NCBI RefSeq assembly: GCF_024171955.1
Contig: NZ_JAMTCS010000011.1
Coordinates: 1 to 64,000 of the forward strand
Length of the DNA stretch: 64,000 bases
Direction: 5' to 3'
Source of the DNA: Promicromonospora thailandica
Lineage (GTDB): Bacteria; Actinomycetota; Actinomycetes; Actinomycetales; Cellulomonadaceae
The position numbers were made by a program, and so were the translations under genes. The notes beneath the pieces were generated by a model, which searched no databases, had not been told where the DNA came from, and saw only the letters and a program-made list of their open reading frames with translations. Positions 8,242 to 43,623 of the stretch are shown piece by piece; position 1 is the stretch's first letter, and each line of letters opens with the position of its first letter.

Positions 8242-8248
8242 GCAGGTC

Positions 8249-8254: not shown

Positions 8255-8392
8255 GGTGGAACCGTTGCGCGGGCGCGTCATACCGTGGTAGCACTTGCGC
8301 CGTGGCCCCCTCAGCCGAAAGGATTCGGTGAGCGGCCCGCGCGGCGGCCATCTTCATCGTGCCCGGGTGGCGCCGGAGCGTCGGTTATGCCC

Positions 8393-8398
8393 TACGAT
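8393..8398 (+). promoter_or_regulatory. -10 element of leaderless OmpR-type regulator mRNA
   Basis: TACGAT lies 6 nt before the ATG at 8405, so the predicted +1 is the A of the start codon. It excludes the upstream in-frame ATG at 8387, which precedes the hexamer. No good -35 box is visible. Confidence 0.6.
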
Positions 8399-8404
8399 GG
8401 CGAA

Positions 8405-9088
<684 letters not shown>

Positions 9089-9092
9089 CCAG

Positions 9093-10448: not shown

Positions 10449-10459
10449 GCTTCACCGAC

Positions 10460-11709: not shown

Positions 11710-11713
<4 letters not shown>
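10460..11713 (+). CDS. purK: N5-carboxyaminoimidazole ribonucleotide synthase PurK
   Basis: A 417-residue ATP-grasp enzyme that carboxylates aminoimidazole ribonucleotide with ATP and bicarbonate, giving N5-CAIR in purine biosynthesis. The N-terminal nucleotide-binding loop [19 protein letters not shown] is clear. The ATP-grasp lysine/glycine region ([16 protein letters not shown]) and the metal-binding segment with [12 protein letters not shown] follow. The length is normal. The GTG start at 10460 lies 9 nt after TAGGCT (10445-10450), so the mRNA may be leaderless or nearly so, with its own promoter inside the end of the kinase gene. Its stop overlaps purE (ATGA), giving a purKE unit. Confidence 0.97.
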
Positions 11714-12219
<506 letters not shown>

Positions 12220-12243
12220 CCCCCGGGGGCTGCGCCAGCCGGA

Positions 12244-12319
12244 CGGTCTCGGACGAGAACGACCTGAGGTACCGATCCGCGTCGGATCCGGTACCTCAGG
12301 TCGTTCTCGTCCGAGACCG
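12244..12319. terminator. Very long perfect hairpin between convergent genes
   Basis: Arms 12244-12273 and 12290-12319 are perfectly complementary over 30 bp. The centre continues with one more pair, a one-base bulge and a 5-bp stem around a CGT loop. It ends 3 bp from the stop of the minus-strand LCP gene and begins 24 bp after purE. With no U-tract it is probably a bidirectional terminator. Confidence 0.75.
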
Positions 12320-12322
12320 GGC

Positions 12323-13885: not shown

Positions 13886-13887
13886 GG

Positions 13888-19700: not shown

Positions 19701-20133
19701 CACCCTCGACATGGTGCCCGGCACCAGCCGCGTGACCGAGGGACAGGCCGTGTCCGTGTGGCGGGTCTCGCCCGCCGACCAGCCCGCACCCGGGTGGGCG
19801 CGCGTCGAGGAGGACGGGACCACCCGCGAGGTGCTGCCGTCGGCCGGGACGCAGGTACGGGCCGACGTCGGCGCGGGCAGTGCGGACCGCGTCGTCGTGC
19901 TCGCGGAGGCCGCCGACCCGGGCTGGCGGGCCACGCTCGACGGTCGGCGCCTCGACGCCGTCGCGCCGGAGCAGACCGCCGGGCTGCAGGCGTTCGTGCT
20001 CGGGCCGGACGACGGGCACCTCGTGGTCCGCTACGAGGCGCAGCACCGCACGGCCTGGCTCGTACTGACCACGTTCACGCTGGTGGTGTTCGCCCTGCTC
20101 GCGCTGCCGGTGGGACGAAGGAGGACGCGATGA
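16777..20133 (+). CDS. Giant membrane glycosyltransferase (GT2 domain plus multi-TM region)
   Basis: A 1,118-residue protein. A GT2 (GT-A fold) domain occupies roughly residues 44-290, with VTAVVVTRG at its start and an acidic LHDDSAPAPGAL near 129-140 as the likely nucleotide-sugar and metal site. The middle, about 300-860, has a dozen or more hydrophobic helices. The last 250 residues form an extracytoplasmic domain closed by a final membrane helix. The protein family pairs with DUF5719 proteins in Micrococcales, as here, where the genes overlap by 4 bp. It probably builds or decorates a lipid-linked envelope glycan. Acceptor and sugar are unknown. The start has only a weak ribosome site (AGCGAG). 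Confidence 0.9.
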   Translation: MSAPRTDSLSAPSPDRGPDEAPAGPVWAKVPTRLAAPAPVAVTVTAVVVTRGSSPYLGATLAALRAQSRTPDDVVVVDVDTAPATSGHQDLQLGGARYVAGAGARTFGEAVETALSATGAPDHGWLWLLHDDSAPAPGALAALTRAVEHSNAVAVAGSKQRRWERDPDGTPLDPDLSDRGVLLEVGHTVSPLGRRMTGIDDTEIDQGQHDAREDVLAVGLAGALVRSAVWRQVGGTDPAYGQLGDSTDFCLRVRLAGHRVVVVPDAVVRHAQVSLHGPGASGARRRAQLYLRLTSVAPWILPFAMLAMLAWAPFAAGYRLALKRPERARDELLAPLWAVFRLGPLLRARRRVARTSTVPRSVLRPLLGTWREVAAERRDRRLARGGAHRVEHALSDLERAELGTLAVRRRATLALVVAGAVGLAAALFGPALGALAAGARLVGGALLAAGGSTATTWSSATSGWVRDGLGTAAPADPLLFVLSGLSVLAGGSLQTAVNGVLLLALPLAAVGAWAAAGTVTRSVWLRAAAAFLWTVAPPFLGALDGGLLGAVLAHALLPWTAVALVRAVGAQAVDRLTPPDDPADAYAPGPRAARPTASLGAAGAGGLLLACVVAGSPALLPAAVLVLVAATLVAPRRRVHLVLALVPALVVGAPLWWTAVRDGDRGLLTAEPLAGASGVGAGGPASGLELLLGLPAAPEPWFDAPDGGGPVPTAVRALVAAGPWAVGVLVVALALLGLLAALLGIGRRRAGATARRVTGTTVVGWLVAAAGIAVAVLAQDDGRWAGPGLSLLLLGLGAAALAGAAAVVARGARLHGFARTAVRTGSVVLVAVGLLLPAAQAAAWLAGSGSVAAAGRADLLHVSAAPVVPAVGQQMQAPPRQARVLEIGFSADGDGTVRYALLRADGSQLADAAVAARVTGGDGTAAGALDTVVAELVSGTTDGVPERLAALGIGAVQVRDGGTAGQDAAVGDLVATLDMVPGTSRVTEGQAVSVWRVSPADQPAPGWARVEEDGTTREVLPSAGTQVRADVGAGSADRVVVLAEAADPGWRATLDGRRLDAVAPEQTAGLQAFVLGPDDGHLVVRYEAQHRTAWLVLTTFTLVVFALLALPVGRRRTR

Positions 20134-25736: not shown

Positions 25737-26078
25737 TCATGGGGCTGGTCGGCTCGCCGCGGCGCCGTGGGCGCTGGCCACGACCGGTTCCGGTACGGAC
25801 CGTGACGGGGTGAGGGAGGCAATCTCCGCGTACGTCTCGAGGAGGGTGTCGACGAGTCCGAGCACCTTGGTACCCAGAGGAGTCACCACGGTCTCCCGCC
25901 CTGTGAAGACGATCAGGTCGTCCGCGAATGCGATCCGCAGCTTGGCGAGGTGCTTGTCGATCGCGGTGCTGGAGATCCCGAGAGCTGCGGCTGCCGCGGT
26001 AATGCCCCCCGTGCGCTCGATGGCGTGCAGGGCACGCAGGTTGGGTGTGGTGAAGCCGGGTGTCGCGGTGGTGTCCAT
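25737..26078 (-). CDS. Short LysR-type helix-turn-helix protein
   Basis: A 113-residue protein consisting of little more than a LysR-type DNA-binding domain. The core TTPNLRALHAIERTGGITAA begins the domain, continuing with ALGISSTAIDKHLAKLRIAF and an E-T-V-V-T-P-L-G-like turn typical of LysR linkers. The roughly 200-residue effector domain of normal LysR proteins (about 300 residues) is missing and no downstream remnant is obvious. A purine-rich AGGGGGG box precedes the ATG. It is divergent from the secreted cluster, so it may bind the palindromes in the 26.1-26.3 kb gap without a ligand. It may also be a decayed LysR gene. Confidence 0.72.
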   Translation of the reverse strand: MDTTATPGFTTPNLRALHAIERTGGITAAAAALGISSTAIDKHLAKLRIAFADDLIVFTGRETVVTPLGTKVLGLVDTLLETYAEIASLTPSRSVPEPVVASAHGAAASRPAP

Positions 26079-26155
26079 GAACCCCCCTGAGGCGTGGATA
26101 CGGCAAACATGACCGTAGTTGGGCAAACCTTTGAAAAGGAGGGCCTGGACGAAAA

Positions 26156-26242
26156 CACCCGGGTGAAACGGACAACCACCCGGGTGAAACCCTGGTCGAC
26201 CAGCCTGAGGTTGGCCCGGCCGGCCTGAGGTTGGTACCAACC
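26156..26242. promoter_or_regulatory. Operator-like repeat array upstream of the secreted cluster
   Basis: CACCCGGGTGAAAC occurs at 26156-26169 and 26177-26190, exactly 21 bp apart. Each contains the palindrome CACCCGGGTG. GCCTGAGGTTGG occurs at 26203-26214 and 26223-26234, 20 bp apart. The second overlaps the perfect palindrome GGTTGGTACCAACC (26229-26242). The spacings match two helical turns, as for cooperating dimers. The array lies about 45-130 bp upstream of the predicted transcription start. Confidence 0.65.
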
Positions 26243-26275
26243 CCGGGATGGTGTCGGCAGCGTGGGATCGGTCCT

Positions 26276-26281
26276 TAACCT
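26276..26281 (+). promoter_or_regulatory. -10 element of the secreted cluster
   Basis: TAACCT lies 7 nt before the GTG at 26289. It supports that leaderless start over the GTG at 26262, and places the palindrome array at about -45 to -130. Confidence 0.55.
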
Positions 26282-26288
26282 CGCGGCT

Positions 26289-28475
26289 GTGATCAGTTCC
26301 TGGCAAGGCCGGACGTCGGCGATCTCTGCAGCCGTGGTGTTCTTGGCGACTCTGACTGTCCTTCCTGGCGCGGCCGTCGTCGGTCCCGCGGACGAGACCT
26401 ACGCTTTCACTGCCCGTATCGATATCGGTGACGGGCAGCGTGTCTGTTCGGGAGCGCTGGTCGCGCCGCAGTGGGTCCTGACCGCGGCAAGCTGTTTTGC
26501 TGACCAACCCGCGACCGAGCTCCCGGCGACCGGGCCGCCGGCATTGCCGACAGAGGTCATCGTGGGACGCGCGGACCTGACGACCGCGGCAGGTCAGGTC
26601 CGGGCCGTGATCGAGGTCGTGCCGCACGACGACCGCGACCTGCTGATGGCTAAGCTCGCGACGCCTGTCAAGAACATCGGCCCCGCTACGATCGCAGCGT
26701 CCTCAGCTCCGGCGTCGGAGTCGGTCGTGGTGCCGGGTTACGGGCGGACGGCGGACGAATGGTCCCCTTTGCTTCGGCACGCCGGCCGCTTCACGACGGG
26801 AACGGTCGGTGACAGCGACCTCATGCTCACCGGCGGTGACGGTTCGGCGATCTGTGCCGGCGACGCGGGCGGACCGGTGTTGGCTGATGGTGCTGCGGGC
26901 AGCGAGCTCGTCGGCGTGGTAAGTCGGTCCTGGCAGGGGGGCTGCTTCGGAGCCGACCCGGCTGAGGACCGCACGGACGCGGTCGCCGCACGCGTCGACG
27001 ACATCCGATCCTGGGTGGTGGGCACCGCGAACCGGGATGGCTGGGTCGACTTCGACTGTGACGGGGTACGTGACGTAGCGATCGGTGATCCGGGCGCGAC
27101 AGTCGGCGGGATGGCAGAGGCCGGACACGTTCGCGTCACCTATGGCGGGACAGGTCAGACGGTCACGATCACCCAGAACTCCGACGGGGTGAGTGACGAC
27201 GCGGAGGCCAACGACCGGTTCGGGTACACGCTCGCGACCTTCGAGCGCAACGCGGACGGGTGCACCGACCTTGCGATCGGGACGCCGTACGAGAACGCCG
27301 GCCGAGGAATCGTCCATGTGGTGTACGGGTCGCCGGAAGGCTTGCTGCGTGGCCCTGCGGGTGCGACGTTCCAGCAGGGCACAGGAACCGGCGCCCTTGC
27401 GCAGGCCACCGACGTGTCGGGCGACCAGGTGGGCTGGGCCCTCGCCGCCGGCCGTATGCAGGACGGCACCGCCTACCTTGCGATCGGCGCGCCGGGTAAG
27501 AACGTGGGCACCACGGAGGCGGGGGTCAACGCCGGAGTTGTCTACTACGTGCGAGGGTTCGAGAGCTCGACCGTCATCACCCAGAGTCAGCCGGAGGTGT
27601 TCGGAGCGAGCGAGGCTTACGACGCCTTCGGGTATGCCGTCGCGGCCGACGCGAGGCATCTCGTGATCGGGGCACCCGGGGAGTCCCTTAATTCCGGAGC
27701 ATCGAACACCGGCTTCGTGCACATCGTGAACCATCCGGCCCAGGTAGGGGGCGGCTTCACGGAGGTCGCCGCCTTCGCGCAGGACTCGACCCGCATATCG
27801 GGCGAAGCGCTCGACGACGATCGGTTCGGCGCGGCCGTCGACGTCGTACGGAGCAGCCCGTCCGGTGCCCTGGCGGATGCCGACTCGATCGTGGCGATCG
27901 GTGTACCCGGTAAGGATGTGGGAACTGCGTCGCAAGCTCTGCCGGCCGCTGAAGGCCGGGTGGTCACACTGCGCGTCGGCGCAGCAGGTGACTGGAACCA
28001 GCTGCACGAATACCACCAGGACGTGCCAGGTGTGGACAGCGACGCGGCTCGCAACGAGCGGTTCGGCACGAGCGTGGCCCTGCAAGCACTGTCGGAGCGC
28101 CCAGGCTCGGCTCCGGAGGTCGTCCTGGCCGTGGGTGTGCCCGGGGACGTGGTACCTACCGGCGCCGGCGGTAGTGACCAGGCATCCGGAAGCATCGCCG
28201 TCTTCTCGGCGCAGGATGAGCCGGCCGCCTTCCAACGGAGCGTCTACTTCCCGAGTGCTCTGCTTCCCGGGTCGACCGCGGCGGGCAACACCGGTCTCGG
28301 CAGCGTCGTAGCCGCGACCGACGAGTATCTCTACATCGGTCTGCCCCGCGGGCAGTTCCCTCAGGGGCGGGCCTGGGCGCTGCCCTGGTCGTCCGTCACC
28401 GGCGGCCCTGCGGCGCCGCTGATCACCTATGAGCCGGGCGCTTCCGGCGCCCTGTTCGGCGCGGCGATCCGCTAG
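26289..28475 (+). CDS. Secreted trypsin-fold pseudoprotease with FG-GAP beta-propeller
   Basis: A 728-residue exported protein. A signal peptide covers about residues 1-30. An S1 trypsin-like domain follows at about 38-245, with SGALVAPQWVLTAASCF, the acid in DDRDLLMAKL (D117) and CAGDAGGPVL. The catalytic His is S68 and the catalytic Ser is A193, so two of three triad residues are lost. Residues 255-728 carry six or seven FG-GAP/integrin-alpha-like blades (CDGVRDVAIGDPGA, DRFGYTLATF, LAIGTPYENAGRG and others), expected to form a propeller. It probably binds protein or glycan outside the cell. GTG 26289 fits both the -10 and the signal peptide; 26262 is the alternative. Confidence 0.88.
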   Translation: MISSWQGRTSAISAAVVFLATLTVLPGAAVVGPADETYAFTARIDIGDGQRVCSGALVAPQWVLTAASCFADQPATELPATGPPALPTEVIVGRADLTTAAGQVRAVIEVVPHDDRDLLMAKLATPVKNIGPATIAASSAPASESVVVPGYGRTADEWSPLLRHAGRFTTGTVGDSDLMLTGGDGSAICAGDAGGPVLADGAAGSELVGVVSRSWQGGCFGADPAEDRTDAVAARVDDIRSWVVGTANRDGWVDFDCDGVRDVAIGDPGATVGGMAEAGHVRVTYGGTGQTVTITQNSDGVSDDAEANDRFGYTLATFERNADGCTDLAIGTPYENAGRGIVHVVYGSPEGLLRGPAGATFQQGTGTGALAQATDVSGDQVGWALAAGRMQDGTAYLAIGAPGKNVGTTEAGVNAGVVYYVRGFESSTVITQSQPEVFGASEAYDAFGYAVAADARHLVIGAPGESLNSGASNTGFVHIVNHPAQVGGGFTEVAAFAQDSTRISGEALDDDRFGAAVDVVRSSPSGALADADSIVAIGVPGKDVGTASQALPAAEGRVVTLRVGAAGDWNQLHEYHQDVPGVDSDAARNERFGTSVALQALSERPGSAPEVVLAVGVPGDVVPTGAGGSDQASGSIAVFSAQDEPAAFQRSVYFPSALLPGSTAAGNTGLGSVVAATDEYLYIGLPRGQFPQGRAWALPWSSVTGGPAAPLITYEPGASGALFGAAIR

Positions 28476-28513
28476 CCAGGTCCCGGCCTTCCATTCGTTG
28501 AGAGGACAGCGCA

Positions 28514-31500
28514 ATGTCATCGGAGTCACCGTTCGTCCTGAACCGGCGTCAAGCGCTCACCCTCTTCGCGGGTGTCGCAGCGCTCGGCGCTCTGCCGACC
28601 TGTACGCCTCTGGGCGCCCGCTCAGCGTTCGGCGCCGAAGCCACCGTGCCGGCTGACTCGGGCCTTCCGGACACGGAGCGTGGGCAGGCGGTCTGGGCTT
28701 ACAAGACCGGGGGCAAGGCGGTGCGTGCCGGTGCGGCCACCGCTCTCGCGGGGAGTGCGACTGACATCAGCACTTTCCTCCACGTCACTCTCCCCGCCGC
28801 TCGTGCTGAAGACAATCTGTTCGCGCTGGCGGCAGCGCTCCCGTACGCGGGCCGGGCGACACGAGACGGGATTGTCGATGCTGTCGCGGGCGGTGAGGGC
28901 GCCGTTGACGCGTTTCTTGGAGGCGGGTACGGCGTCGCGGTGCACGAAGACTTGAACGTCGCGGTGGCGACGCTGCTCGGCAAGGGCGGTCCAGCCGTCC
29001 GTCGTGAGGCAACGGCCGCTCTCGACGACGGAAGCTTCGAGGCGTTGCAAACCTTTCTCGAAGGCGGCCAGTTCGTAGCGCAAGAGGAGGACGACCAGGT
29101 TCAGGTCGCTGCTATTCATGCAACAGCATCGCCGCAGGTTCGCGAGTACGCCGAGCGCGCACTGCTGGACGGCTCACCCGAAGCGATCAGACAGTTCTTG
29201 GTATCCGGCCAGTACATCGCTCGAGCTCGTGACGAGGAATCGGCCACAATCGAGCAACTGGTTGCGATCGTCGAGTCCGAGGGGCGACGGGCGGACGTCC
29301 AGACACAACGTGCCGTGACACTTTCCGCGCAGGCTGTGGAAGCAGCCGCGAACGCGAAGGCTGCCGCACAAGAAGCGAAGGTCGAGGCGGAAGCGGCGCA
29401 GGACGACGTTGAGAGGTCTGCCAGGGCCGCTCAGAGCGCCGCGCGAGCGGCGAAGGACGCTGCCTCAGCGGCGTCGACTGCCGTATCGGCGTCCAGAACA
29501 GCGCAGTCTGCGGCTCAGCGAGCAGCCACCGCTTCCCAGGCGGCTGGCTCTGCGGCCGCGTCGGCCGGCCGCGCTGCCGCGACGGCCTATAACGCTTCGA
29601 TCGCTGCATCGAACGACGCGTCCAAGGCATCGGCCGCGCGGTCGGCAGCCGAAGGAGCCCGCGACGCAGCGGCGCGTGCCAGGACCGCGGCTGCGGCGGC
29701 TGACCATGCGGCGACCGCCGCAGGCGAAGCAGGGAGTGCCAGCGCAGCGGCGGCGAGTGCCGCAAACAACGCTGCTGCGGCCGCGGCTGCGTCGGCTGCG
29801 GCGGCGGACGCGGCCGGAGTTGCGCAGGCCGAGGCTGCCGCTGCAAGAAAGGCCGCCGTAGAGGCGGACGACGCCGCAAGGAGGGCCACCCAGGCCGCAG
29901 GCACGGCCCAAGCGCTCGCCGGAAGAGCGGCTGCCGCTGCCCGCGTGGCGCGGGACGCAGCAAACAGTGCTGCCGGCCATGCCGAAAACGCGGCCGACGC
30001 AGCTGACGAGGCAGCGGACCACGCCGGAGAAGCAATTGATTACGCCAATCGCTCTACGGCCGCTGCTCGTTCTGCTCTTCAGGCGGCTAACGCGGCGGCA
30101 GACGCCGTCGGGGAAGCGCGGGCCGTCGAGGCTGCGGCCCGGGACGCGGAAGCCGCCCGACTCGCCGAGGATACCGAGGCGGCGATCGCAGAAGCACGAC
30201 GGCGTGCCCAGTCAGAAGCCGTGCTGGCCGACAGGATCGCTCGATCGCAGACGCAGGAAGCCCTGATGTCTGACGAGATCAAAGACTTGATTGCTGCGGC
30301 TGAGACACATCTGGGAGCCGGAGCGACGGAACATGCGGTCCGTGAAGGTAGGCAGGCGGCCGCCAAACTGTTGGAAGCCACGGGAGGCTGGACCCGTGAC
30401 GCCGCCGAGTTCGCCCTCGCCGGTGGCGATCAAGACGTTGTCAACTGGCTTGAGGTCGACCGACGGCTTGCTCAGCAGCAGGACGAACGAGAGACAATTC
30501 TCTTGGTTGCGCGAGTTGCGACGGCGAACGTCGCCAGGTCTGCCGCCGAAGCCCTCGAGAGCGATGCCACCGACGCAGCGCGGACATTCATCGAACGGGG
30601 TGTTGTCGAAGCAGCGCACGAGGACAACACCGTCAACATCGCGCGGATCCTAGCCAGCGGACCTGGCCCGGCTGTAGAAGCTGCGGCCGTCGCGGCGCTC
30701 GACCTCGGCACTGCGGAGGCGGCGCATGAGTTCTTCAAGGTTGGACTACCTCAAGCCACGCAAGAGGACGACGAGGTGGAGATCGCGCGTCTCCTCGCAA
30801 GTGGTGGACCGTACACGCGCGCAGCTGCGAGGGTCGTTCTCGAGGGCACGAGCAGTATGCGGCGTTCGTTCGTGAGCGATAGGCAGTATGACGTCGCTCA
30901 GCTCGACCACGATTATGCGACGCATGTCAGCGCGATACGCGCTTCCATCGCGGCAGCGGCGCGAACCGCCGCTGAGGCACTCCGCGACGCAGCGCGCGCG
31001 TCGGCGGCCGCAGCGCGCGCAAGAGACGCTGCCGATGAAGCGGCGATATGGGCAGGTCGTGCGGACGGGTACGCCACAGACGCGGAGCGCGCTGCAGGGG
31101 ACGCTCGTGACAATGCGGACGCGGCCGACCACGCCGCACACCAGGCGGCCCAGAGCGCAGTACGTGCACGCGAGGCCGCGGTTGTGGCGCGGTCTGCCCG
31201 TCGGCATGCGAACTACTCCGCCAAGCGCGCGATGGTGTCGGCGCGAGAAGCGGTCACTTTTGGCAGGCAGGCTCAGGCATCCGCTACCAGTGCGCGTGCT
31301 GCAGCAATCGCGGCTGGCCAGGACGCGGCAGTGGCGGCGGATGCAGCCAGCGATGCTCGCCGCATCGCCGTTCAACGTGCGCAAGCAGAACTTGTTGCCC
31401 AGGCGCGCGCGGCAGCCGACACCACGCAACGTCATCAAGCGGACGGAACAAATCCAGCCGACGACGACCCGGACGTCAACGGAGAAGCTGACCTTTACTG

Positions 31501-31927
31501 CCCGTGGATCGATCCGGGAAGCCCGACAGCTAGGAACTGGGCCAGCACTCTCGACGAGATCAGCGCGTGGACCGGGATCATCGCCACCGTAACTGCTATC
31601 GGCGTGCCCGCAGCCACAGCGCTCGGAGGGGTGCCGGGTGCGCTCCTCTTGGCGGCGAACCGAGTCTTGTCAGGGGTCTCCACCATCACTGGCATCGCGA
31701 GCGTTGTCGCCACCGGTTTCGGTTACGGCTGGAGGAGCAGCGAATTCCATGAATCGTTGGGTTCGCAGTTCATAGGCATAGCGCTTGGTGGTATTGGAAG
31801 TGGGTTTACTAAACTGCACAAGAAGATTCTTCCGTCGGGTGACACGGTCGTCGAGGAGACGCTTGGTCGCGTGGCCGGTGAGGGCATCTACAGCGCGACG
31901 AGTTGGGTGATCGGGTTGTTCGATTGA
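28514..31927 (+). CDS. Tat-exported ALF-repeat / alanine-rich coiled-coil protein with hydrophobic C-terminal domain
   Basis: A 1,137-residue protein. The N-terminus LNRRQALTLFAGVAALGAL is a twin-arginine signal. ALF-type short repeats (patterns A-AL-GS---FL--G) fill about 55-255. Ala-rich coiled coil runs from about 265-585, a second ALF block lies at about 590-805, and a second coiled coil at about 810-975. A short linker with ADLYCPWIDPGSPTARNW precedes a hydrophobic domain of about 120 residues ending at 1137 (IIATVTAIGVPAATALGGVP and GIASVVATGFGYG). A GAGAGGA ribosome site precedes the ATG by 7 nt. It follows the pseudoprotease by 38 bp. Similar ALF proteins occur in Streptomyces, with unknown function. 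The rod-plus-tip design resembles polymorphic toxin carriers, an inference. Confidence 0.85.
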   Translation: MSSESPFVLNRRQALTLFAGVAALGALPTCTPLGARSAFGAEATVPADSGLPDTERGQAVWAYKTGGKAVRAGAATALAGSATDISTFLHVTLPAARAEDNLFALAAALPYAGRATRDGIVDAVAGGEGAVDAFLGGGYGVAVHEDLNVAVATLLGKGGPAVRREATAALDDGSFEALQTFLEGGQFVAQEEDDQVQVAAIHATASPQVREYAERALLDGSPEAIRQFLVSGQYIARARDEESATIEQLVAIVESEGRRADVQTQRAVTLSAQAVEAAANAKAAAQEAKVEAEAAQDDVERSARAAQSAARAAKDAASAASTAVSASRTAQSAAQRAATASQAAGSAAASAGRAAATAYNASIAASNDASKASAARSAAEGARDAAARARTAAAAADHAATAAGEAGSASAAAASAANNAAAAAAASAAAADAAGVAQAEAAAARKAAVEADDAARRATQAAGTAQALAGRAAAAARVARDAANSAAGHAENAADAADEAADHAGEAIDYANRSTAAARSALQAANAAADAVGEARAVEAAARDAEAARLAEDTEAAIAEARRRAQSEAVLADRIARSQTQEALMSDEIKDLIAAAETHLGAGATEHAVREGRQAAAKLLEATGGWTRDAAEFALAGGDQDVVNWLEVDRRLAQQQDERETILLVARVATANVARSAAEALESDATDAARTFIERGVVEAAHEDNTVNIARILASGPGPAVEAAAVAALDLGTAEAAHEFFKVGLPQATQEDDEVEIARLLASGGPYTRAAARVVLEGTSSMRRSFVSDRQYDVAQLDHDYATHVSAIRASIAAAARTAAEALRDAARASAAAARARDAADEAAIWAGRADGYATDAERAAGDARDNADAADHAAHQAAQSAVRAREAAVVARSARRHANYSAKRAMVSAREAVTFGRQAQASATSARAAAIAAGQDAAVAADAASDARRIAVQRAQAELVAQARAAADTTQRHQADGTNPADDDPDVNGEADLYCPWIDPGSPTARNWASTLDEISAWTGIIATVTAIGVPAATALGGVPGALLLAANRVLSGVSTITGIASVVATGFGYGWRSSEFHESLGSQFIGIALGGIGSGFTKLHKKILPSGDTVVEETLGRVAGEGIYSATSWVIGLFD

Positions 31928-31935
31928 TCTCAGGA

Positions 31936-32406
31936 ATGCCCTATCGGGAACGTTCGCAGGTCCCGATCCCCAAACACGAATGGGTCGTCATGGATGCTGA
32001 GTGGAATCCCGCGATATCACGATCTACCGTACCGGGGGCATCTGCGCACTCGCTCGCCCGTACGGAGTCATGGGCGCTAGGTATCTGCCTTGCCAGCCTT
32101 GTCGTCGCTGTGCCCCTGTGGGCGTCACGATTGGACTTGTGGTCCTTTCCGTTCTACATCGTCAGTGTTCTAGCCCTGGCCGTCAAGCGAACGGCTGACT
32201 CGATGGAAAGGGCGGCAGTCGCAAGAGAGGCCAAAGCTGGATATACGACTCTCAAGAGCGGGCCGCCGGACGTTGACTATGTCGACTCCAGGACTGGGCG
32301 GCTGGTGCGGTACGCCAACGAGGTCGTTGCGCCTGAAGAGGTCGACGAGCGGTTGCAGGCCGTGCGGCGCACGCGTACAAGCCCGACCGCGGAGCACGGG
32401 GGCTGA
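31936..32406 (+). CDS. Small two-TM protein (immunity or partner candidate)
   Basis: A 156-residue protein I do not recognise. Two adjacent hydrophobic helices lie near residues 45-85 (LGICLASLVVAVPLWA and FPFYIVSVLALAV), separated by a short loop. A charged cytoplasmic tail of about 70 residues follows, containing DYVDSRTGRLVRYANEVVAPEE. It begins 8 bp after the ALF-repeat gene. The start is uncertain: ATG 31936 has AGGA directly upstream, while GTG 31903 would overlap the ALF gene and ATG 31990 would still keep both helices. Tight linkage to a gene with a hydrophobic C-terminal cargo makes an immunity or anchoring role plausible but unproven. Confidence 0.6.
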   Translation: MPYRERSQVPIPKHEWVVMDAEWNPAISRSTVPGASAHSLARTESWALGICLASLVVAVPLWASRLDLWSFPFYIVSVLALAVKRTADSMERAAVAREAKAGYTTLKSGPPDVDYVDSRTGRLVRYANEVVAPEEVDERLQAVRRTRTSPTAEHGG

Positions 32407-32492
32407 ATCGCGGTGTGGACGATATCTAGTGATTTCCACTGTGCGCTCGGGCATTATCGAATCCAGAGGTTGGGATGAGAAAGGAACGGACG

Positions 32493-33008
32493 ATGAAGAT
32501 CGGGACGAATGTGCTTCGTGCAGGGGTTGGTGCTGCGCTGTTAGCCGCGATGGTGGGCGCCGGGGCCGCAGGGGCCGCGTTCTCCGCGGAGGCTTCGCAA
32601 GGTGACCTAGATGCCGATTTGCCGCCGTATGCAGTAGAGGACTTCAATTACCCCGGTGCAGAGCAGATCCTCGTCGAGCGCGGAATCGAGCTCAAGCGGG
32701 GTGACGGACACATCGTGCTCGCCGACTGCAGCGGTTCTAACTTGATTCGTATCTCCGCTCGCGGTCAGTCAAGTTTGACCGTTTGCTTTCGCGCGACTGG
32801 CAACGAAGGCTGGTTGACGCTCGAACTTCCCGGAGCGTTCCTCGTTCGGACGAACGATTACGAGAGCACGCATCTTGAGCTCGCGGCCTCCAGTGGCGAT
32901 ACTCAGTCGTTCGACGTGGGTCCCAACGACATCCAGTCGGTTGGTGAAGCGGACCCTGGTTCGGGTGGACAGCAGTTCGCGTTGCTCGAGATCAGGGTCA
33001 GCCGGTGA
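32493..33008 (+). CDS. Small secreted protein of unknown function
   Basis: A 171-residue exported protein. The signal peptide is clear: MKIGTNVLRAGVGAALLAAM followed by an Ala/Gly core. The mature part has two cysteines (LADCSGSN, TVCFRATG) likely to form a disulfide, and strand-rich text such as GWLTLELPGAFLVRTNDY. ATG 32493 is preceded by AAGGA at 32481-32485; ATG 32475 would add six residues. The stop overlaps the next gene as GTGA, so the secreted protein and the second trypsin-fold protein are translationally coupled and may form a complex. Third-position GC is visibly lower here than in the flanking housekeeping genes. Confidence 0.75.
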   Translation: MKIGTNVLRAGVGAALLAAMVGAGAAGAAFSAEASQGDLDADLPPYAVEDFNYPGAEQILVERGIELKRGDGHIVLADCSGSNLIRISARGQSSLTVCFRATGNEGWLTLELPGAFLVRTNDYESTHLELAASSGDTQSFDVGPNDIQSVGEADPGSGGQQFALLEIRVSR

Positions 33009-34282
33009 TCCGTGCGCACTGGGTGTCGCGCTGGGCGTGGTCCTCGGGCCTGCTGGCGGCCCTCCTCGTGGCCCCACTCGTCACTCCCACCGCGTCGGCA
33101 GTTGGGGCAGCCCCGGACGACACCACCAACGGATTCGTGACTCGTCTGGACGTCGGTTCCGGTCAGCGCGCTTGCAGCGGGGCACTGGTCGCACCACAGT
33201 GGGTGCTGACGGCGGCGAGCTGCTTTGTCGAGGACCCCGCCGAGGGCCTGAACCTGGTCGCTGGGCCGCCCACCCTGTCGACCACCGCGACGATCGGCCG
33301 AGCGGACCTGACCACGAACACTGGACACGTACGCGACGTCGTCGCCCTGGTGCCCCACGGCGAGCGAGACCTCGTTCTGGCTCAGCTCGACGGCGCAGTG
33401 ACGGGGGTGGTCCCGGTGGCCATCGCGGAGAGTTCGCCGACCGCGAGCGAGCAGGTGCAGGTTTCCGGTTTCGGTCGCACCGCCACGGAATGGGCGCCGC
33501 TGCGACGGCATGCCGGCACGTTCACCGTGGACTCCGTGGAGGGCGGCGCCGTCGCGATCACCGGCCTCGACGGTGCGGCTGTCTGTGCCGGAGACACCGG
33601 CGGGCCGGTCCTGCGCGCGACGGCTGGCAGCCCCGAGCTGGTGGCGGTCAGCAGCAGGTCGTGGCAGGGCGGATGCTTTGGTGGTGACCCCGCCGAGACG
33701 CGGACGGGTGCGGTCGCCAGCCGCGTGGACGACGTCAGGGACTGGGCCCAGCTCCAGATCGGGGACTACCTGACGGCCCGGAACGTGGTGCAGGCGGCCG
33801 TCGCTGATCTGCTCGGCCGGCCGGCCACTCCCGACGAGATCGCCGACTGGGCGCCGGTCGTGCTGTCCGAGGGTGGGCGGCCGCTCGCCACCTGGGTCGA
33901 GACGTCGACGGAGTACCGGGAACGACGGATCGTCGATGCCTTCCGGACGACGCTCGACCGCGACCCGAACGAGACCCAGCTCGACCGTCTCGTCGGCGAG
34001 GTCGCGGCTGGGAGAAGTCTCGATCTGATCCGGCCTGCTTTGATCTGGTCGGACGCCTACTACGCGCACGTGGGGGGAACGAACCGGGCGTTCGTCATCG
34101 CTGCCTACGAGGACATAGCTGGCCGCACGCCGCCGGACGCGACCGTCGACACCTTGGTCGGCCGAGTTCAGGCCGAGGGACGCCAAGCCGTCGTCGAGTA
34201 TCTGTGGACGACCCCCCGCCGTGGTGGGCAACCGGGTGAGGGCGACATACCAGCTCTTCATCGGAAGGCAGCCCACCGATGA
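33005..34282 (+). CDS. Secreted trypsin-fold pseudoprotease with DUF4214-like C-terminus (frameshifted near its end)
   Basis: A 425-residue product as read. A signal peptide (residues 1-35) leads to a trypsin-like domain closely matching the first one in this cluster: SGALVAPQWVLTAASCF, ERDLVLAQL (D122) and CAGDTGGPVL. S72 replaces the catalytic His and T198 the catalytic Ser. From about 260 come DUF4214-like helical repeats (RTTLDRDPNETQLDRLV, AYEDIAGRTPP). The frame is lost after EYLWTTP at a run of six C (34212-34217). Removing one C restores a continuous reading frame to 34403. Overlap with the upstream gene implies coupling. It may be a real mutation or a sequencing error. Confidence 0.8.
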   Translation: MIRAHWVSRWAWSSGLLAALLVAPLVTPTASAVGAAPDDTTNGFVTRLDVGSGQRACSGALVAPQWVLTAASCFVEDPAEGLNLVAGPPTLSTTATIGRADLTTNTGHVRDVVALVPHGERDLVLAQLDGAVTGVVPVAIAESSPTASEQVQVSGFGRTATEWAPLRRHAGTFTVDSVEGGAVAITGLDGAAVCAGDTGGPVLRATAGSPELVAVSSRSWQGGCFGGDPAETRTGAVASRVDDVRDWAQLQIGDYLTARNVVQAAVADLLGRPATPDEIADWAPVVLSEGGRPLATWVETSTEYRERRIVDAFRTTLDRDPNETQLDRLVGEVAAGRSLDLIRPALIWSDAYYAHVGGTNRAFVIAAYEDIAGRTPPDATVDTLVGRVQAEGRQAVVEYLWTTPRRGGQPGEGDIPALHRKAAHR

Positions 34283-34403
34283 GTGGGTTGCGCCATGGAC
34301 CGAGCGCATCATCACCGACCCGGGTCGGGGAGAGGTCGTGCTCCGCAGCTATCTCGTCGCTTCCCCTGGGTATGCGCTGGTGGCAGATCGAAGGTTCTCA
34401 TGA
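34218..34403 (+). pseudogene. Displaced C-terminal end of the DUF4214-like pseudoprotease
   Basis: This frame continues the interrupted upstream protein: AVVGNRVRATYQLFIGRQP, then a DUF4214-like helix pair ending in YALVADRRFS before a TGA at 34401-34403. Joined to the upstream gene with one C removed from the 34212-34217 run, it completes the last DUF4214 repeat and gives a product of about 465 residues. Confidence 0.65.
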
Positions 34404-34566
34404 CGACGAAGACGAGCAGGTCACACTGGTGGCCGGGCCCGTGGCGGTCTTGCTGGTGATACCCGAGGTCGCTCTCCTCGTCGCCGGTGGCGGTGGCGTG
34501 ACGTATGTGCCAGGTACCTCCGGACTGCCGGCTCCTGGTGCGGTGTTCTGGACCGCCATCGGCTGA
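34400..34566 (+). pseudogene. Possible frameshifted single-TM mini-protein
   Basis: ATG at 34400 overlaps the stop of the preceding fragment (ATGA). As read it encodes only 19 residues (MTTKTSRSHWWPGPWRSCW). Adding one base at the GGGCCC run (34435-34440) would join it to a hydrophobic helix, GPVAVLLVIPEVALLVAGGG, and an ordinary C-terminus ending at 34566, about 55 residues. A second indel so close to the first suggests base-calling errors or a decaying operon end. A GTG at 34429 could instead start a 45-residue protein. Confidence 0.35.
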
Positions 34567-36054: not shown

Positions 36055-37236
36055 GTGGCCACGCTGAACGAGCGCTACAACTTCCTCCTCTCCCGCCTGT
36101 ACGGCCGACTCGGCCGGCCCGGGCGCGCCGAGCGCGCCCTCGCACGGGCGACGGCGGGACCTGAGGCCGACCCCGCCTGGCTGCACCGCCTGGCCACCGC
36201 CCGTCGCCGGGCCCACGACCACGCCGGAGCGGCCGACGCGCTGGCGCGGGCGATCGACGGTCGTGGCGAGGACGCGCCGGGCCGCTGGTACTACGAGCTC
36301 GGCCGCGCCTCGGAGCTCGCGGGCCGGCTCGAGGACGCCGACGCCGCCTACCGGCGCTGGACCGCCCGCGAGCCGCTGCCCCGCGGCCTGGACGCCGTGC
36401 TGCTCGACCGCGGCGTGCAGCAGTTCGTGCCGCGGCGGGACGCCGTCCGCTTCGTGCTCGAGCGTCTGCCGGAGCTTCGCGCCGCCGCCGCGGCGCGAGA
36501 GGTCGTCCAGGACCGGTCGGAGACCGTGTGGGTGTACTGGGCGCAGGGCTTCGAGCAGGCGCCGGACGTGGTGCGGATGTGCCGCGCGAGCATGTCCCGG
36601 CACCTCACCCGCCCGGTCGTGGAGCTCACCGACGAGAACGTGGGCACGTATGTGACCCTGCCGGACGACATCGACACGATGGTCACCGACCGGACCGCAC
36701 GGTCCGACCTGCTGCGCCTGGAGCTGCTCGCGCGGTACGGGGGTACGTGGTTCGACGCCACCTGCTACCTGCGGGGCGACGCGGGGGCGGAGATGGCCGA
36801 CCACGCCCGGCCGTCCGGCTTCTTCGCCCCGGCCAAGGAGCGGACGACGATCGGCACGTGGAACATCACCGCCCGGCCGCGCCACCACCTCGTCACGATG
36901 ACGCTGGAGGCGCTCTACGCCTACTGGCGGCGGGACGGCGCGCTGCCCCACTACTTCACGTTCCACCACCTCTTCGAGGCGCTGGCGCTCACGGACCCGC
37001 GGTCGGGCGAGCTGTGGACCGCGACGCCCCGGCTGTCGACCGCGCCGTCGCTGCGGCTCCGCCACTGGATGAGCCGGGACGTGACCGACGAGGAGTTCGA
37101 CCGCGCGCTGTCCCGCGCGACGATCCACAAGCTCTCGTACAAGGCCGGCGCCGACAACACCGGTCCGCGCAGCGTGCTCGGCCGGTTGTACGCGGCGCAG
37201 GCGGCCGCGGGCGGCAACCCGCTCGCGACCGCCTGA
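36055..37236 (+). CDS. Capsular polysaccharide synthesis glycosyltransferase (GT32-like) with helical N-terminus
   Basis: A 393-residue protein. Residues 1-145 are TPR-like helical pairs with repeated A-A-L-R. The catalytic part begins at VWVYWAQGFEQAPDVVRMC and contains RTARSDLLRLELLARYGGTWFD, the core of the capsular polysaccharide synthesis family (PF05704) related to GT32, with its D-x-x-D-like acidic motif ending in WFDATC. It probably adds a hexose to a surface polysaccharide in the cytoplasm. The start is GTG 36055 and its ribosome site is weak. The AT-rich TTAAATT at 36014-36020 may be part of its promoter. It is convergent with the next gene, stops 6 bp apart. Confidence 0.85.
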   Translation: MATLNERYNFLLSRLYGRLGRPGRAERALARATAGPEADPAWLHRLATARRRAHDHAGAADALARAIDGRGEDAPGRWYYELGRASELAGRLEDADAAYRRWTAREPLPRGLDAVLLDRGVQQFVPRRDAVRFVLERLPELRAAAAAREVVQDRSETVWVYWAQGFEQAPDVVRMCRASMSRHLTRPVVELTDENVGTYVTLPDDIDTMVTDRTARSDLLRLELLARYGGTWFDATCYLRGDAGAEMADHARPSGFFAPAKERTTIGTWNITARPRHHLVTMTLEALYAYWRRDGALPHYFTFHHLFEALALTDPRSGELWTATPRLSTAPSLRLRHWMSRDVTDEEFDRALSRATIHKLSYKAGADNTGPRSVLGRLYAAQAAAGGNPLATA

Positions 37237-37242
37237 GCGCCG

Positions 37243-39591
37243 TCAGACCGCGCGCAGAAGCACCGCGAGGGACTCGTCGTACTGTTCACGCAGCGACTCC
37301 CGGGCGCCGGCCACGGCCTTCCGGTACTGCCCTGGGTCGTCGAGCACGGCGCGGGTCAGCTCGAGCAGCCGGTCGCCCAGGTGCTCCTCGAAGATCGGCA
37401 GACCCCACTCGGGGTGCCCGACGTCCTCGAGGAAGTAGCGGAGCTTGGGGTGCGAGACCAGCGACACGATCGGGGTGCCCACTCCGAACGGGATCATGCC
37501 CGCGTGCCCGCGCATGCCGATCACCAGGTCGGAGTCCGCATAGAGCTGGAGGGCGCCGTCCACACCGAGCCGGAAGAGGCAGTCGACGGGCACCCGCGTG
37601 CCGTGCGTCGCGTACAGGTCCTGGGCGACCCGCTCGTCCCCGACGGTGTGCGCCGCGATCCGGATGTCGGCCAGCTCGCCTGCGGCACGGACGAACCGGT
37701 CCAGCTCGGCCAGGAAGCCGTCGTAACGACCCTTGAAGCGCAGGGCGGTCCGGTCGAACGCGATGTTGAGGTGGACCACGGGTCGGCGGCCGGGCTCGAC
37801 GGCTCGCTCGACCCGGGCGCCCGGACCGTGCGGCAGGAGACCGAGGAAGGTGGTCGGGCACGGCATGTAGCGCACCCGATCCTGCAGCTCGGCGGGCAGC
37901 AGGTCCCGCACGCGGTCGATCGACCCGTGGTTGCGCAGGCCCACGAGCGTGGCACGCTCGACCGTCAGCCGCAGGGACTCCCCGAAGCGTGACCCGTGGA
38001 TCTCCTGGCCCTCGAACAGGTTGTACCCCACGGCGACCAGACCCAGCGGCACCCGGAGCGACCGGAGGCTGTCGTCGGGCACGTTCCACTGCCAGCCGCT
38101 GTTCCCGTTCGGCATCGTGTCGGGCAGGAACAGTCCGCCACCACCGACCAGCACCGCATCGGTGGCGTTCGCGCGTTCGACGGCGGCCGCGTCGAACACC
38201 TGGTGCACGTGGACGCCGTTCCACGACTCGACCGGACGCACGGCGGCGACGCTCTCCCGGACCGCGACCGGCAGCAGCTCGTCGCCGTAGTTGCCGAGCT
38301 CGTCCATGTAGAACGCCGCGTGCGTGAGCCGCAGGCCGCCGGGCGTGGTCGTGGCCTGCACGCCCGCGTCGACCGAGCCCGCCCGGAGGCGCCCGTCCAG
38401 GGCGCGAGCCTTGGCATGCACAGGGTTCAGGTGCAGGGCGGCGTCGAGGTGCTCCCGTGCGGCCGCCAGGTCACCCGTGACCCAGGCGGTCTCGGACAGG
38501 AACTGCTCGGCCAGCCACGGTTCGGGTTCCTTGACCGCGAGCAGGCCGATCGCCGCGGCCTCGTCGTACCGGGACAGGGCACGCAGGTCCCCGGCAAGGC
38601 GAAGGGGATCGCTGATCCGGCCGGTCTGCCCGGCCACGGCCTGGCGGACGGCGACCGCCGCCGCGTAGCGCCCCTGCTGGGAGAGCGCGGTCGCCTCGGC
38701 GACCAGCCGCCCGACCTTGTCCACGTCGCGCGCCACGAGACGGTCGAGAAGCTCCGCGGGCACATCCCGGACCACATCGCGGTAGTGGCTCTCGAGCACG
38801 GGGTCGGTCGGTGCGCCACCGTCAGACAGGGCGAGATACCGGGCGAAGAACGCCAGGTGCGTCAGGTCGTAGGAGCGCCAGGTCGCCTCCAGCTCGGCGT
38901 AGCCGTGCTCACCGCCTGTCCAGGGCTTGTACCGGCCGGTGAAGTGCAGCACCCGCACGTCGCCCGGTTGCGATCGACCGGGCTGCGAAGCCTCCTTGGT
39001 CCAGTTGTAGGTGCGGTCGAGCCGGTGATACCCCGAACCCAGCACGGCGTTGAGGAGGCCCTGGCCGTGCTCGTCCGGCGCGTACGCGCCGTCGCTGCCC
39101 ACGCGTTCCAGCCGTGCGACGAACTCGTCGCTCATGTGTTCCCGGCCGAAGACGAGCAGGCCCCCGTCGAACGCCGGGTCGTCGTCGCGGGACGACCGTG
39201 GCACGGCGGCGAAGGGCTCGGGGAGGTCGAAGAGACCCTCGATCTCTCCCAGCACCGTCATGTCGGTGCCCAGCGTGATCACGCGGTCGTAGTCGCGGAG
39301 GCGGAACGCGTCGAGGATCGCGTACATGGTGCCGGGGGCACCGCTCGACCCGCCGGGCCTGCGGAAGCGCTCGTAGAGCGCGGGGTCCACGCGGACGAAC
39401 CGGACTCCGGGACGGAGCGTCCGGATCAGCGCGGCGTCGTCGCCCGGGAGCCCGTCGTGCAGGACCACGAGGTCAGCCGTCGAGCCGGGGTTGTTCAGGA
39501 TCAGACTCTTCAGCAGGACGAGAAACCCTGCGAGGCTGTCGTGGTCCACGAAGCTCACATAGGCGCGCCTGGAGCCGTCGGTGATGGCCAT
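37243..39591 (-). CDS. GT8-like glycosyltransferase fused to polysaccharide pyruvyltransferase
   Basis: A 782-residue two-domain enzyme. Residues about 8-270 are GT8-like: YVSFVDHDSLAGFLVLLKSL, then the metal region ITLGTDMTVLGEI near 103-113, where the usual DxD reads GTD. A helical, TPR-like spacer runs from about 275-415. From about 418 to the end is a polysaccharide pyruvyl transferase domain (PF04230): MDELGNYGDELLPVAV, AVLVGGGGLFLPDT, and SDLVIGMRGHAGMIPFGVG with its conserved H. It would add both a sugar and a ketal pyruvate to one glycan. A GAGGAG site precedes the ATG. It is the last gene of the manB operon. Confidence 0.88.
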   Translation of the reverse strand: MAITDGSRRAYVSFVDHDSLAGFLVLLKSLILNNPGSTADLVVLHDGLPGDDAALIRTLRPGVRFVRVDPALYERFRRPGGSSGAPGTMYAILDAFRLRDYDRVITLGTDMTVLGEIEGLFDLPEPFAAVPRSSRDDDPAFDGGLLVFGREHMSDEFVARLERVGSDGAYAPDEHGQGLLNAVLGSGYHRLDRTYNWTKEASQPGRSQPGDVRVLHFTGRYKPWTGGEHGYAELEATWRSYDLTHLAFFARYLALSDGGAPTDPVLESHYRDVVRDVPAELLDRLVARDVDKVGRLVAEATALSQQGRYAAAVAVRQAVAGQTGRISDPLRLAGDLRALSRYDEAAAIGLLAVKEPEPWLAEQFLSETAWVTGDLAAAREHLDAALHLNPVHAKARALDGRLRAGSVDAGVQATTTPGGLRLTHAAFYMDELGNYGDELLPVAVRESVAAVRPVESWNGVHVHQVFDAAAVERANATDAVLVGGGGLFLPDTMPNGNSGWQWNVPDDSLRSLRVPLGLVAVGYNLFEGQEIHGSRFGESLRLTVERATLVGLRNHGSIDRVRDLLPAELQDRVRYMPCPTTFLGLLPHGPGARVERAVEPGRRPVVHLNIAFDRTALRFKGRYDGFLAELDRFVRAAGELADIRIAAHTVGDERVAQDLYATHGTRVPVDCLFRLGVDGALQLYADSDLVIGMRGHAGMIPFGVGTPIVSLVSHPKLRYFLEDVGHPEWGLPIFEEHLGDRLLELTRAVLDDPGQYRKAVAGARESLREQYDESLAVLLRAV

Positions 39592-39605
39592 TCCGTCAGT
39601 TCTCC

Positions 39606-40928
39606 TCAGCGCAGTGAGATCTTGCCCGGCCCGGTCGACACGGCACGGGAGAGTATCCAGTCGCGCTCGGCGGTGGGGGAGGGGGCCTCGGCGTCCGGGC
39701 GAAGGTCGAGCCCGAACAGGTCGATCGTGGTGCTCACGTCCAGGTAGTCCAGGAGCACGGTCATGGTGAGATGGGTGGTGGGCTCGGGCAGGGCGGCGCG
39801 GAGGGCGTGCGGCATCACCGTGCTGCGGGGCCAGCGGACCGACTCGTCGCCCACCCACCGCTGCGCCTCCGGCCTCAGCCGCTTGACCAGCGAGCCGACC
39901 CACTCCGCAGCGGGCGCGCCGCTGAAGGCGAGCCGGACGTCCACGGGGACGTCCCAGCCGCCGTCGTCCTGGAGGCTGGTGGCGTGGACGTCGGTCCGCG
40001 TGCCCGTCCGGGCCGCATCCAGGGCGAACGACCCACAGCGGATCACCACGTCGTAACCGTCGATCTCGGCCCCGTGCTCGCCCAGGGACCCGGTGGCGTT
40101 CCCGACGAGACAGATCCGCTTGCCTGCGAAGTACTCGCGCAGCCCGGACAGGTTGGCGGTACTGACGGCGGGGGGTTCGCCCGCCCAGCGGGTGCCCCTC
40201 TCCCACACACCCGCGCCCATCTCGGCGACGGTGGCGTCAAGGACCCCGCGGAGCACCGCCACGGGAGAACCTACGGCGACAGAGTGTGCGACCGTGCCGC
40301 GCAGCACGGCCAGATAGGGCTTCGACGCCGCCGCGTCGCCGTGGTAGGCGGCAGCGAGCTCCGCAGCGGCGTTCGTGGAGAGCTCGTCGGCCGACCCGGC
40401 GGCGAGGTCTCGCAGTGCGCTCGCGATGCGGGTGTCTTGCGACCGCTTGCGCGCAGTGACCCGCCACGGTTCCTCCCCGGCGGTCGGCCGGGTCGAGCCT
40501 GCGACGTCGCGCTGGACGGCGCGCGCCCGCTCGTCGCCCGGGCGGGCCTCGAGCACACAGCTCGCCGCCCGGAGCGCGAGCTGGTCGTCCAGCCCGACGA
40601 GCTGCCGGGCGACGTCGGTGAGCGACTCCACGACCGGGGCGTCGGTATGCCAGGCCCGGCGGTCGAGGCTCATGTCGAGCGCCGCTCCGGCCCGCGCCTC
40701 CGCGACCGTGACCCGGGCCTGGAACGCGACGACGGTCTGGACGACCAGCTCGTGGCGGGTCGTCGCGCTCGCCGACAGGTCCGCCGCGAAGACGGCCAGG
40801 TCCCGCACCAGTGCGGTGAACTCACGGTTGGTCCGCTGGGTGCGCGGCCCACCCTTGAGCGACTCGATGAGGCGCTGGCGCACCCGCCGCTTCGCTCCTT
40901 GCGAGAGCCGCCGCAGAGGCTGTTTCAT
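39606..40928 (-). CDS. GT29 sialyltransferase-like protein
   Basis: A 440-residue protein. The first 250 residues are helical and Arg-rich without a known domain. From about 260 the sequence LREYFAGKRICLVGNATGSL and then EIDGYDVVIRCGSF matches the sialylmotif L of GT29 sialyltransferases (VGN, then D---V-R). Later text TVMPHALRAAL and a C-terminal strand FGLDLRPDAEAPSP fit the S/VS region loosely. GT29 enzymes use CMP-sialic acid, which NeuA in this window could provide. Sits 14 bp upstream of the GT8/pyruvyltransferase gene in the same operon. The family call rests on the L motif only. Confidence 0.75.
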   Translation of the reverse strand: MKQPLRRLSQGAKRRVRQRLIESLKGGPRTQRTNREFTALVRDLAVFAADLSASATTRHELVVQTVVAFQARVTVAEARAGAALDMSLDRRAWHTDAPVVESLTDVARQLVGLDDQLALRAASCVLEARPGDERARAVQRDVAGSTRPTAGEEPWRVTARKRSQDTRIASALRDLAAGSADELSTNAAAELAAAYHGDAAASKPYLAVLRGTVAHSVAVGSPVAVLRGVLDATVAEMGAGVWERGTRWAGEPPAVSTANLSGLREYFAGKRICLVGNATGSLGEHGAEIDGYDVVIRCGSFALDAARTGTRTDVHATSLQDDGGWDVPVDVRLAFSGAPAAEWVGSLVKRLRPEAQRWVGDESVRWPRSTVMPHALRAALPEPTTHLTMTVLLDYLDVSTTIDLFGLDLRPDAEAPSPTAERDWILSRAVSTGPGKISLR

Positions 40929-41010
40929 CCTTGGTCCTTCGTGAGGTCCCTGTGCCCGGGCAGGTGCGCGGCACAGCCACTGGTACCGGACCAGCGGGAA
41001 TCGGTGCGGT

Positions 41011-42219: not shown

Positions 42220-42356
42220 GAGGGCGCTCCTCTCACAGCGGGCTCAGCGCCCACGAAGCCGGGGGCCGCGTGCCCCTGGCCAGATCACCCGCGAGCGTAC
42301 CGAAGTTCGGCCCACGCTCTGACACCGTGGTGGTCCGCAGGGTGGTCCGCAGGGGG

Positions 42357-43607: not shown

Positions 43608-43623
43608 GGGGGCGAGACTACCT

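Follow-up and report, generated by a model that had tools for sequence, protein, structure and literature searches.

What are the five co-directional genes at positions 26262 to 34282 of a 64,000-nucleotide stretch of the Promicromonospora thailandica genome (assembly GCF_024171955.1, contig NZ_JAMTCS010000011.1, positions 1 to 64,000 of the forward strand; hereafter the window), and what might their exported products do together? An original prediction made from the letters alone took them for an undescribed system of ALF-repeat and dead-trypsin proteins, a kind of protein said to lack an assigned role. Both statements have been overtaken by the literature: umbrella toxins, a recently discovered weapon between soil bacteria, have been characterised in Streptomyces, and such proteins were given a role in 2024 and 2025 (Zhao 2024, PMC11062931; Zhao 2025, PMC13274773). 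From sequence comparison we hold with high confidence that the five genes constitute one complete umbrella (Umb) toxin particle locus, and so a known system. The mechanism first proposed, a secreted complex of antagonism in which dead proteases bind and a rod carries a membrane-active tip, appears by analogy to agree well with the published particle.

The open frames follow one another on one strand with gaps of 38, 8, 86 and -4 bases, exactly as predicted. The span first given ran to 34566 and does hold the five genes, but the last frame ends at 34282. The third and fourth frames are counted here from ATG, and a longer version of the fourth begins at 32475. The cluster features are as follows.

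26262..28475, plus strand: UmbA1, secreted, with an inactive trypsin fold (Ser in place of His, Ala in place of Ser) and then FG-GAP repeats (Pfam Trypsin and FG-GAP; 8w20_C, E 1.7e-54; 9oee_A, E 7.3e-50; motifs).
28514..31927, plus strand: UmbC, with Tat signal, ALF1-4 (residues 64-232), coiled coil, ALF5-8 (residues 619-788), coiled coil and a hydrophobic C-terminal toxin-type tip (ALF, E 1.1e-46; 8w20_A, E 6.8e-97).
31505..31924, plus strand: UmbC tip, residues 998-1137, of a hydrophobic family on one UmbC lineage (hydropathy, tip family).
31936..32406, plus strand: two-TM (transmembrane) protein, candidate UmbD (immunity), from its position after umbC and two hydrophobic segments.
32493..33008, plus strand: UmbB, small secreted adaptor, with AVED at residues 53-56 of the frame read from 32475 (8w20_B, E 1.4e-20; motif).
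33005..34282, plus strand: UmbA2, secreted, with an inactive trypsin fold (Ser in place of His, Thr in place of Ser) and a region of DUF4214-like repeats (8w20_C, E 7.5e-63; homologues).
34221..34403, plus strand: out-of-frame remainder of the DUF4214-like region, 60 aa, a separate piece not joined to UmbA2 (by-eye likeness to the in-frame C-terminal end of the UmbA at locus L018).

The solved Umb1 particle of Streptomyces coelicolor (PDB 8w20/8w22; PMC11062931) has a homologue in the cluster for each of its chain types. The UmbC match to chain A covers residues 40-980, gene 4 matches chain B and is UmbB, and genes 1 and 5 both match chain C and are UmbA. The ALF and FG-GAP repeats of the original prediction were both found, as were its trypsin folds (TAASCF with GDAGGP or GDTGGP) and a Tat-like RRQAL motif on its rod. 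UmbC carries eight ALF repeats, four in each of two sets, and in both sets the second repeat is weak (E 0.87 and 1.4). We collected 48 UmbC proteins, defined as distinct frames of at least 900 aa from the loci of the UmbA scan described below, from plasmids and from further genomes; the same ALF model at E below 0.1 found eight repeats in 42 of them, seven in five and six in one. The AVED motif is present in gene 4, and among 72 UmbB-like frames xVED[FY] occurs in 45 and AVEDF in 25, the remainder being unsorted and including wrong frames. umbB and umbC are neighbours, within the published ten-gene criterion. The C-terminal lectin feature of UmbA is represented in UmbA1 by its FG-GAP region, probably a beta-propeller lectin; UmbA2 has no lectin match and has DUF4214-like sequence instead. 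Export of the cluster proteins is a prediction from hydrophobic N-termini judged by eye (UmbA1, UmbB, UmbA2) and from the Tat-like motif of UmbC.

The window locus has in common with Umb1 the UmbA, UmbB and UmbC homology over shared domains, the eight ALF repeats, AVED, the inactive trypsin folds and Tat on UmbC. It differs in three respects from the description of Umb1 in PMC11062931: the Umb1 tip is a HINT plus deaminase whereas the tip here is hydrophobic, an Imm1-family protein is replaced by a two-TM protein, and the text there has one umbA near each umbC whereas this locus has two.

The Pfam Trypsin matches, together with NCBIfam FusH matches at E 9.3e-49 and 3e-54, would also suit genes for secreted degradative or antibiotic-modifying enzymes, either trypsin-like or FusH-like esterases, standing among unrelated neighbours. 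The catalytic His is replaced by Ser in both UmbA, however, and the catalytic Ser by Ala in UmbA1 and by Thr in UmbA2. Moreover, the FusH scores of 166.4 and 184.5 bits fall far short of the curated cut-off of 999, and the UmbA chain of 8w20, whose PDB name is 'secreted esterase', scores higher (189 and 217 bits, although from a different program). We regard the enzyme reading as hardly credible. A FusH-type esterase was rejected on the curated equivalog score.

The original prediction had named its own test, namely whether the genes would prove unlinked elsewhere, and this was run with UmbB and UmbA as distribution markers. ALF, UmbB and inactive-trypsin genes turned out to be linked in other genera and orders. 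A contig scan based on UmbA yielded 182 related stretches; the best 80 were retained and fall in 78 loci with flanks of at most 10 kb, many contigs being cut. Within the fetched flanks UmbB was found in 48 of these UmbA-selected loci, UmbC in 47, and UmbB together with an ALF/UmbC frame in 47. In all three plasmid loci opened around UmbB matches, UmbB has as neighbours a protein annotated 'ALF repeat-containing protein' and one that is trypsin-like or FG-GAP, and linkage was seen in 7/7 genome stretches around UmbB matches, four of which coincide with loci L004, L015, L018 and L027 of the 78 (L and G numbers are our labels for loci and genomes).

Gene order is less constant. No gene-for-gene conserved order was found among the loci of the UmbA scan, where both order and strand vary. 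In most Streptomyces loci with all three genes umbC is divergent from umbB-umbA, whereas the window reads umbA, umbC, two-TM gene, umbB, umbA on one strand and Promicromonospora sp. AC04 (L018) reads umbA(DUF4214)-umbA(propeller)-umbB-umbC, also on one strand. In two Myceligenerans loci, the space between umbB and umbC holds frames that match UmbA as well as UmbB (L002 2396-5986; L003 2665-5934); UmbA-UmbB fusions have been published. Additionally, in one locus (L100, genome G027, 2799-15103) umbC, two umbB-like and four umbA-like genes follow one another on the same strand.

Several observations weigh against a complete and working umbrella locus. The UmbB-UmbC pair was undetected within the fetched flanks in 31 of the 78 UmbA loci, likely because contigs are cut or umbA genes are orphans. 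This genome has two UmbA in all and one DNA match to this umbC. UmbA2 lacks a beta-lectin, and near 34.2 kb its reading frame is either broken or wrongly read. For gene 3 the loci scanned yielded no homologue, so that its reading as a candidate immunity protein draws on position and topology.

The break in UmbA2 bears on a further explanation, in which the umbrella locus is decaying: an inherited leftover whose UmbA2 is broken and which has no function under selection. Near 34.2 kb the UmbA2 frame departs from the DUF4214 register, and the remainder is readable to 34403 in another frame; the 60-aa piece at 34221..34403 gave no Pfam match above cut-off. The break may be either real or an assembly error. 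Decay would also suit the base composition. As predicted, GC at third codon positions (GC3) is relaxed, at 0.68-0.82 in the cluster against 0.98, 0.95 and 0.96 at manA, SpoIID and a capsule-type gene; by gene it is 0.80, 0.68, 0.69 (counted from 31990), 0.68 (from 32475) and 0.82. Elsewhere in the window GC3 is at least 0.91 in 30 of 37 frames, although the rule for picking frames is itself biased towards high GC3. Set against decay, the other four frames are open over their full length, the motifs of UmbA1, UmbC and UmbB are kept, one S. griseus strain is published to secrete a particle that has just one UmbA, and relaxed GC3 fits horizontal acquisition too. We consider decay quite improbable.

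Horizontal acquisition is a separate matter from decay. UmbB was present in four of 13 genomes of the genus, including this one, in two of 48 from other genera of the family and in none of 38 from other families of the order. The distance from manA to SpoIID is 1.8, 1.9 and 7.0 kb in congeners G004, G007 and G009 and 10.3 kb in the window, where the cluster lies between the two; none of the five genes gave a match at E<=1e-8 at this site in the three congeners examined (of 12; all three UmbB-negative). The congener stretches were taken around SpoIID, as an approach from two flanking genes put the partners on different contigs for most congeners. Because UmbB is patchy, GC3 is relaxed and the site lacks the cluster in three congeners, the data point to horizontal acquisition of the cluster. 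The relaxed stretch may start ahead of the cluster, since the two genes directly upstream (a membrane-protein gene and a helix-turn-helix gene) are intermediate, with GC3 of 0.86 and 0.82.

What goes beyond the known system, as far as the sequences indicate, appears to be a family of tips that goes with a single lineage of ring and adaptor, together with an UmbA2 that has DUF4214-like repeats in place of a lectin. For gene 5 the label DUF4214 had been given in the original prediction; homologues carry that assignment, but Pfam DUF4214 did not match the window protein itself at E<=1, and PF13946 (DUF4214) had no match in this genome. The C-terminal 153 residues of UmbA2 gave no Pfam match above cut-off (MLTR_LBD, at E 0.0036, was below its own cut-off). 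They were matched in 47 of 221 genomes of the family, this one included. An Amidase_2-type domain stands in the same frame in 21 of the 29 loci from outside the window that were fetched from this search, including all eight from the genus. Eight amidase-type proteins were scanned with Pfam, and DUF4214 was found in 8/8 and Amidase_2 in 4/8. Since matches to the UmbA2 tail co-occur with Amidase_2 domains in one frame, the module looks common to wall amidases and was perhaps taken from them. The nearest amidase of this genome (window 47538-48458) matches only outside the DUF4214-like tail.

The repeats shared with Amidase_2 proteins of the same genus and family (for example that of L102, E 6.6e-27) follow a peptidoglycan amidase domain in those proteins and an inactive trypsin fold in UmbA2, and wall binding by UmbA2 would be predicted. 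The closest parallel within an umb locus is the UmbA of Promicromonospora sp. AC04 (L018:9749-11026), which combines an inactive trypsin fold with a DUF4214-like C-terminal region, the latter below the Pfam cut-off (E 4.8e-4). Unlike UmbA2 it stays in frame to its end, where umbA(propeller), umbB and umbC follow, and the umbC tip there is less hydrophobic than that of the window. DUF4214 is not among the C-terminal domain families that the published text lists for Streptomycetaceae UmbA, the term does not occur in the main text of PMC11062931 or PMC13274773, and a literature search found no publication with DUF4214 and a lectin together.

The C-terminal 140 residues of UmbC form the tip, with hydrophobic segments at residues 1022-1040 and 1051-1069 (mean hydropathy at least 1.3); after the second half-ring the window UmbC had no Pfam match at E<=1. 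In a tree of the 48 UmbC proteins built on their rings (ALF1-4 plus ALF5-8), a branch of length 0.54 with support 100/100 separates 19, including that of the window, from the others. These 19 come from Promicromonospora, Amycolatopsis, Streptomyces, Embleya and one further genus of the window's family. A hydrophobic tip was called in 18 of the 19 as against 4 of the 29 outside, and 281-339 residues follow the second half-ring in the lineage, compared with 265-582 in 28 others (L048 was not measurable). A tip model built from the 19 matched none of the 29 other UmbCs at E<=10, so that, by this model, the four hydrophobic tips outside the lineage appear unrelated to the family. When each member was left out in turn, 18 of 19 were recovered at E<=2e-18 and L018 was missed.

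The tie was also examined in a wider sample. Sixteen tips were searched against 394 genomes of the class, with matches at 16 places in 15 of them. All 12 strong matches (E<=2.7e-10, the window among them) fall in frames whose fetched stretch holds 3-4 ALF repeats; of the four weak matches, three that were examined have no ALF repeats, one of these being a contig-end piece, and the fourth, L174, had no entry. The window aside, every one of the 11 strong matches prefers the ring model of this lineage (261-335 against 150-197 bits), although some may be close kin of the training set. In leave-out assignment the ring models were right for 19/19 lineage members and 28/28 others, L048 having been dropped for a best match in the wrong half-ring. 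The UmbB tree tracks the same split, with 2 changes against a shuffled mean of 15 (47 rows), and the UmbA tree does so less, with 7 against 15.7 (49 rows); these were quick trees with few well-supported branches. No statement of such a tie was found in the passages of PMC11062931 and PMC13274773 that were consulted.

The tip family is probably the '4TM tox' of PMC11062931, where this ranks as one of the two most frequent classes of UmbC toxin. The '4TM tox' UmbCs (S. coelicolor UmbC2, S. anulatus) likewise bear a hydrophobic C-terminal domain at the end of the stalk; by name they have four TM helices, whereas the window tip shows just two strong hydrophobic segments. A search of plasmids with a related tip (L053) gave two records, S. 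anulatus not among them.

Could the tip instead be a translocation or anchoring segment rather than a toxin, with the killing activity elsewhere or absent? Two weak matches of the tip model (E 8.9e-8 and 8.6e-6), in frames of 454 and 470 aa that have no ALF repeats, would suit such a role, one of them having about 140 further residues after the match, but they are possibly compositional. The tip is the last domain of UmbC, which is the toxin position, and in the published work the S. anulatus 4TM-tox domain was part of a toxicity assay and UmbC C-terminal domains cut viability. We judge an anchoring role improbable and favour a toxin. The two frames lie at L171 1072-2433 and L172 1198-2607, and their helical N-terminal regions gave an impression of type VII secretion effectors.

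Gene 3 lies directly 3' of umbC. Its description as a two-TM protein holds at the lower threshold, where two hydrophobic segments are called, and not at a stricter one, where a single segment remains. Neither Pfam nor NCBIfam gave a match for it at E<=1. Small proteins, of fewer than 300 aa and with at least two predicted TM segments, follow umbC in 6 of 19 lineage loci as against 1 of 29 others, a count from crude gene calling in which three of the 29 gave no frame and gene 3 of the window has one segment. From its position and topology, gene 3 is likely an immunity protein (candidate UmbD).

By analogy with the published particle, UmbA and UmbB would be exported via Sec and UmbC via Tat. The eight ALF repeats of UmbC would then shut into a ring, with the coiled coils as a stalk bearing the C-terminal toxin domain at its end. 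UmbB copies would attach to the ring, each AVED strand filling the dead active-site cleft of one UmbA, so that the UmbA C-terminal domains are directed outward. The FG-GAP propeller of UmbA1 would meet surface glycans of a related actinobacterium and the DUF4214-like repeats of UmbA2 presumably its wall, and the hydrophobic tip would be inserted in the target membrane and cause damage. The two-TM protein encoded after umbC would shield the producer.

Ahead of the cluster lies a repeat-rich region, as predicted, with two pairs of direct repeats.

26153..26247, no strand: upstream region, with two AA[AC]CACCCGGGTGAAAC copies at 26153-26169 and 26174-26190 and a palindromic core CACCCGGGTG.
26197-26214 and 26217-26234, no strand: second pair of the upstream region, two 18-base copies with end CCTGAGGTTGG.
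26224-26247, no strand: imperfect inverted repeat.
25737..26078, minus strand: divergent LysR-type helix-turn-helix protein, 113 aa, without an effector domain (HTH_1, E 6.7e-11).

The copies within each pair are spaced by 20-21 bases. The first pair is far above chance, ACCCGGGTGAAAC occurring twice where 0.02 occurrences are expected. Neither repeat core was found in 173 of 175 fetched loci, and the two matching loci are stretches of the window itself. The region 26153..26247 is a probable, putative operator/promoter region, and the LysR-type protein, which faces the cluster across the repeats, is a possible and perhaps minimal regulator of it; among 100 loci its sole match is the window's own.

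The flanks of the cluster form a wall-glycopolymer neighbourhood, with LytR-CpsA-Psr (LCP), glycosyltransferase, pyruvyl transferase, capsule-type, acyltransferase, SpoIID and Amidase_2 proteins. Because a wall glycopolymer has been published as a receptor of umbrella particles, this location is suggestive. At locus L095, on the other hand, tyrosyl-tRNA synthetase-like sequence, judged by eye, lies downstream in place of such genes. The wall-glycopolymer genes of the window (LCP, glycosyltransferases, two pyruvyl transferases, capsule-type, Amidase_2, SGNH/acyltransferase and cytidylyltransferase) are at 12323-14146, 16777-20133, 36055-45381, 47184-49151 and 51732-55281.

The tips of polymorphic toxins are usually exchanged. 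We propose, tentatively and with somewhat more doubt than conviction, that there are at least two umbrella core lineages and that in one of them ring and UmbB have been kept with a single short hydrophobic tip, which is not swapped, while UmbA mixes more freely. The ring, stalk and adaptor of this lineage may suit pushing a membrane-acting tip into the envelope, unlike those of umbrellas that must deliver an enzyme to the cytoplasm, and the particles of this genus may have taken a wall-associated amidase module as a receptor-binding arm. This touches questions that the published accounts leave open, namely the role of the stalk, the passage of toxins across membranes and whether umbrellas are used uniformly across Actinobacteria. 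The Promicromonospora locus, with its lineage-tied tip and an UmbA module of the wall-hydrolase type, would allow concrete tests of what ring, stalk and spoke each contribute.

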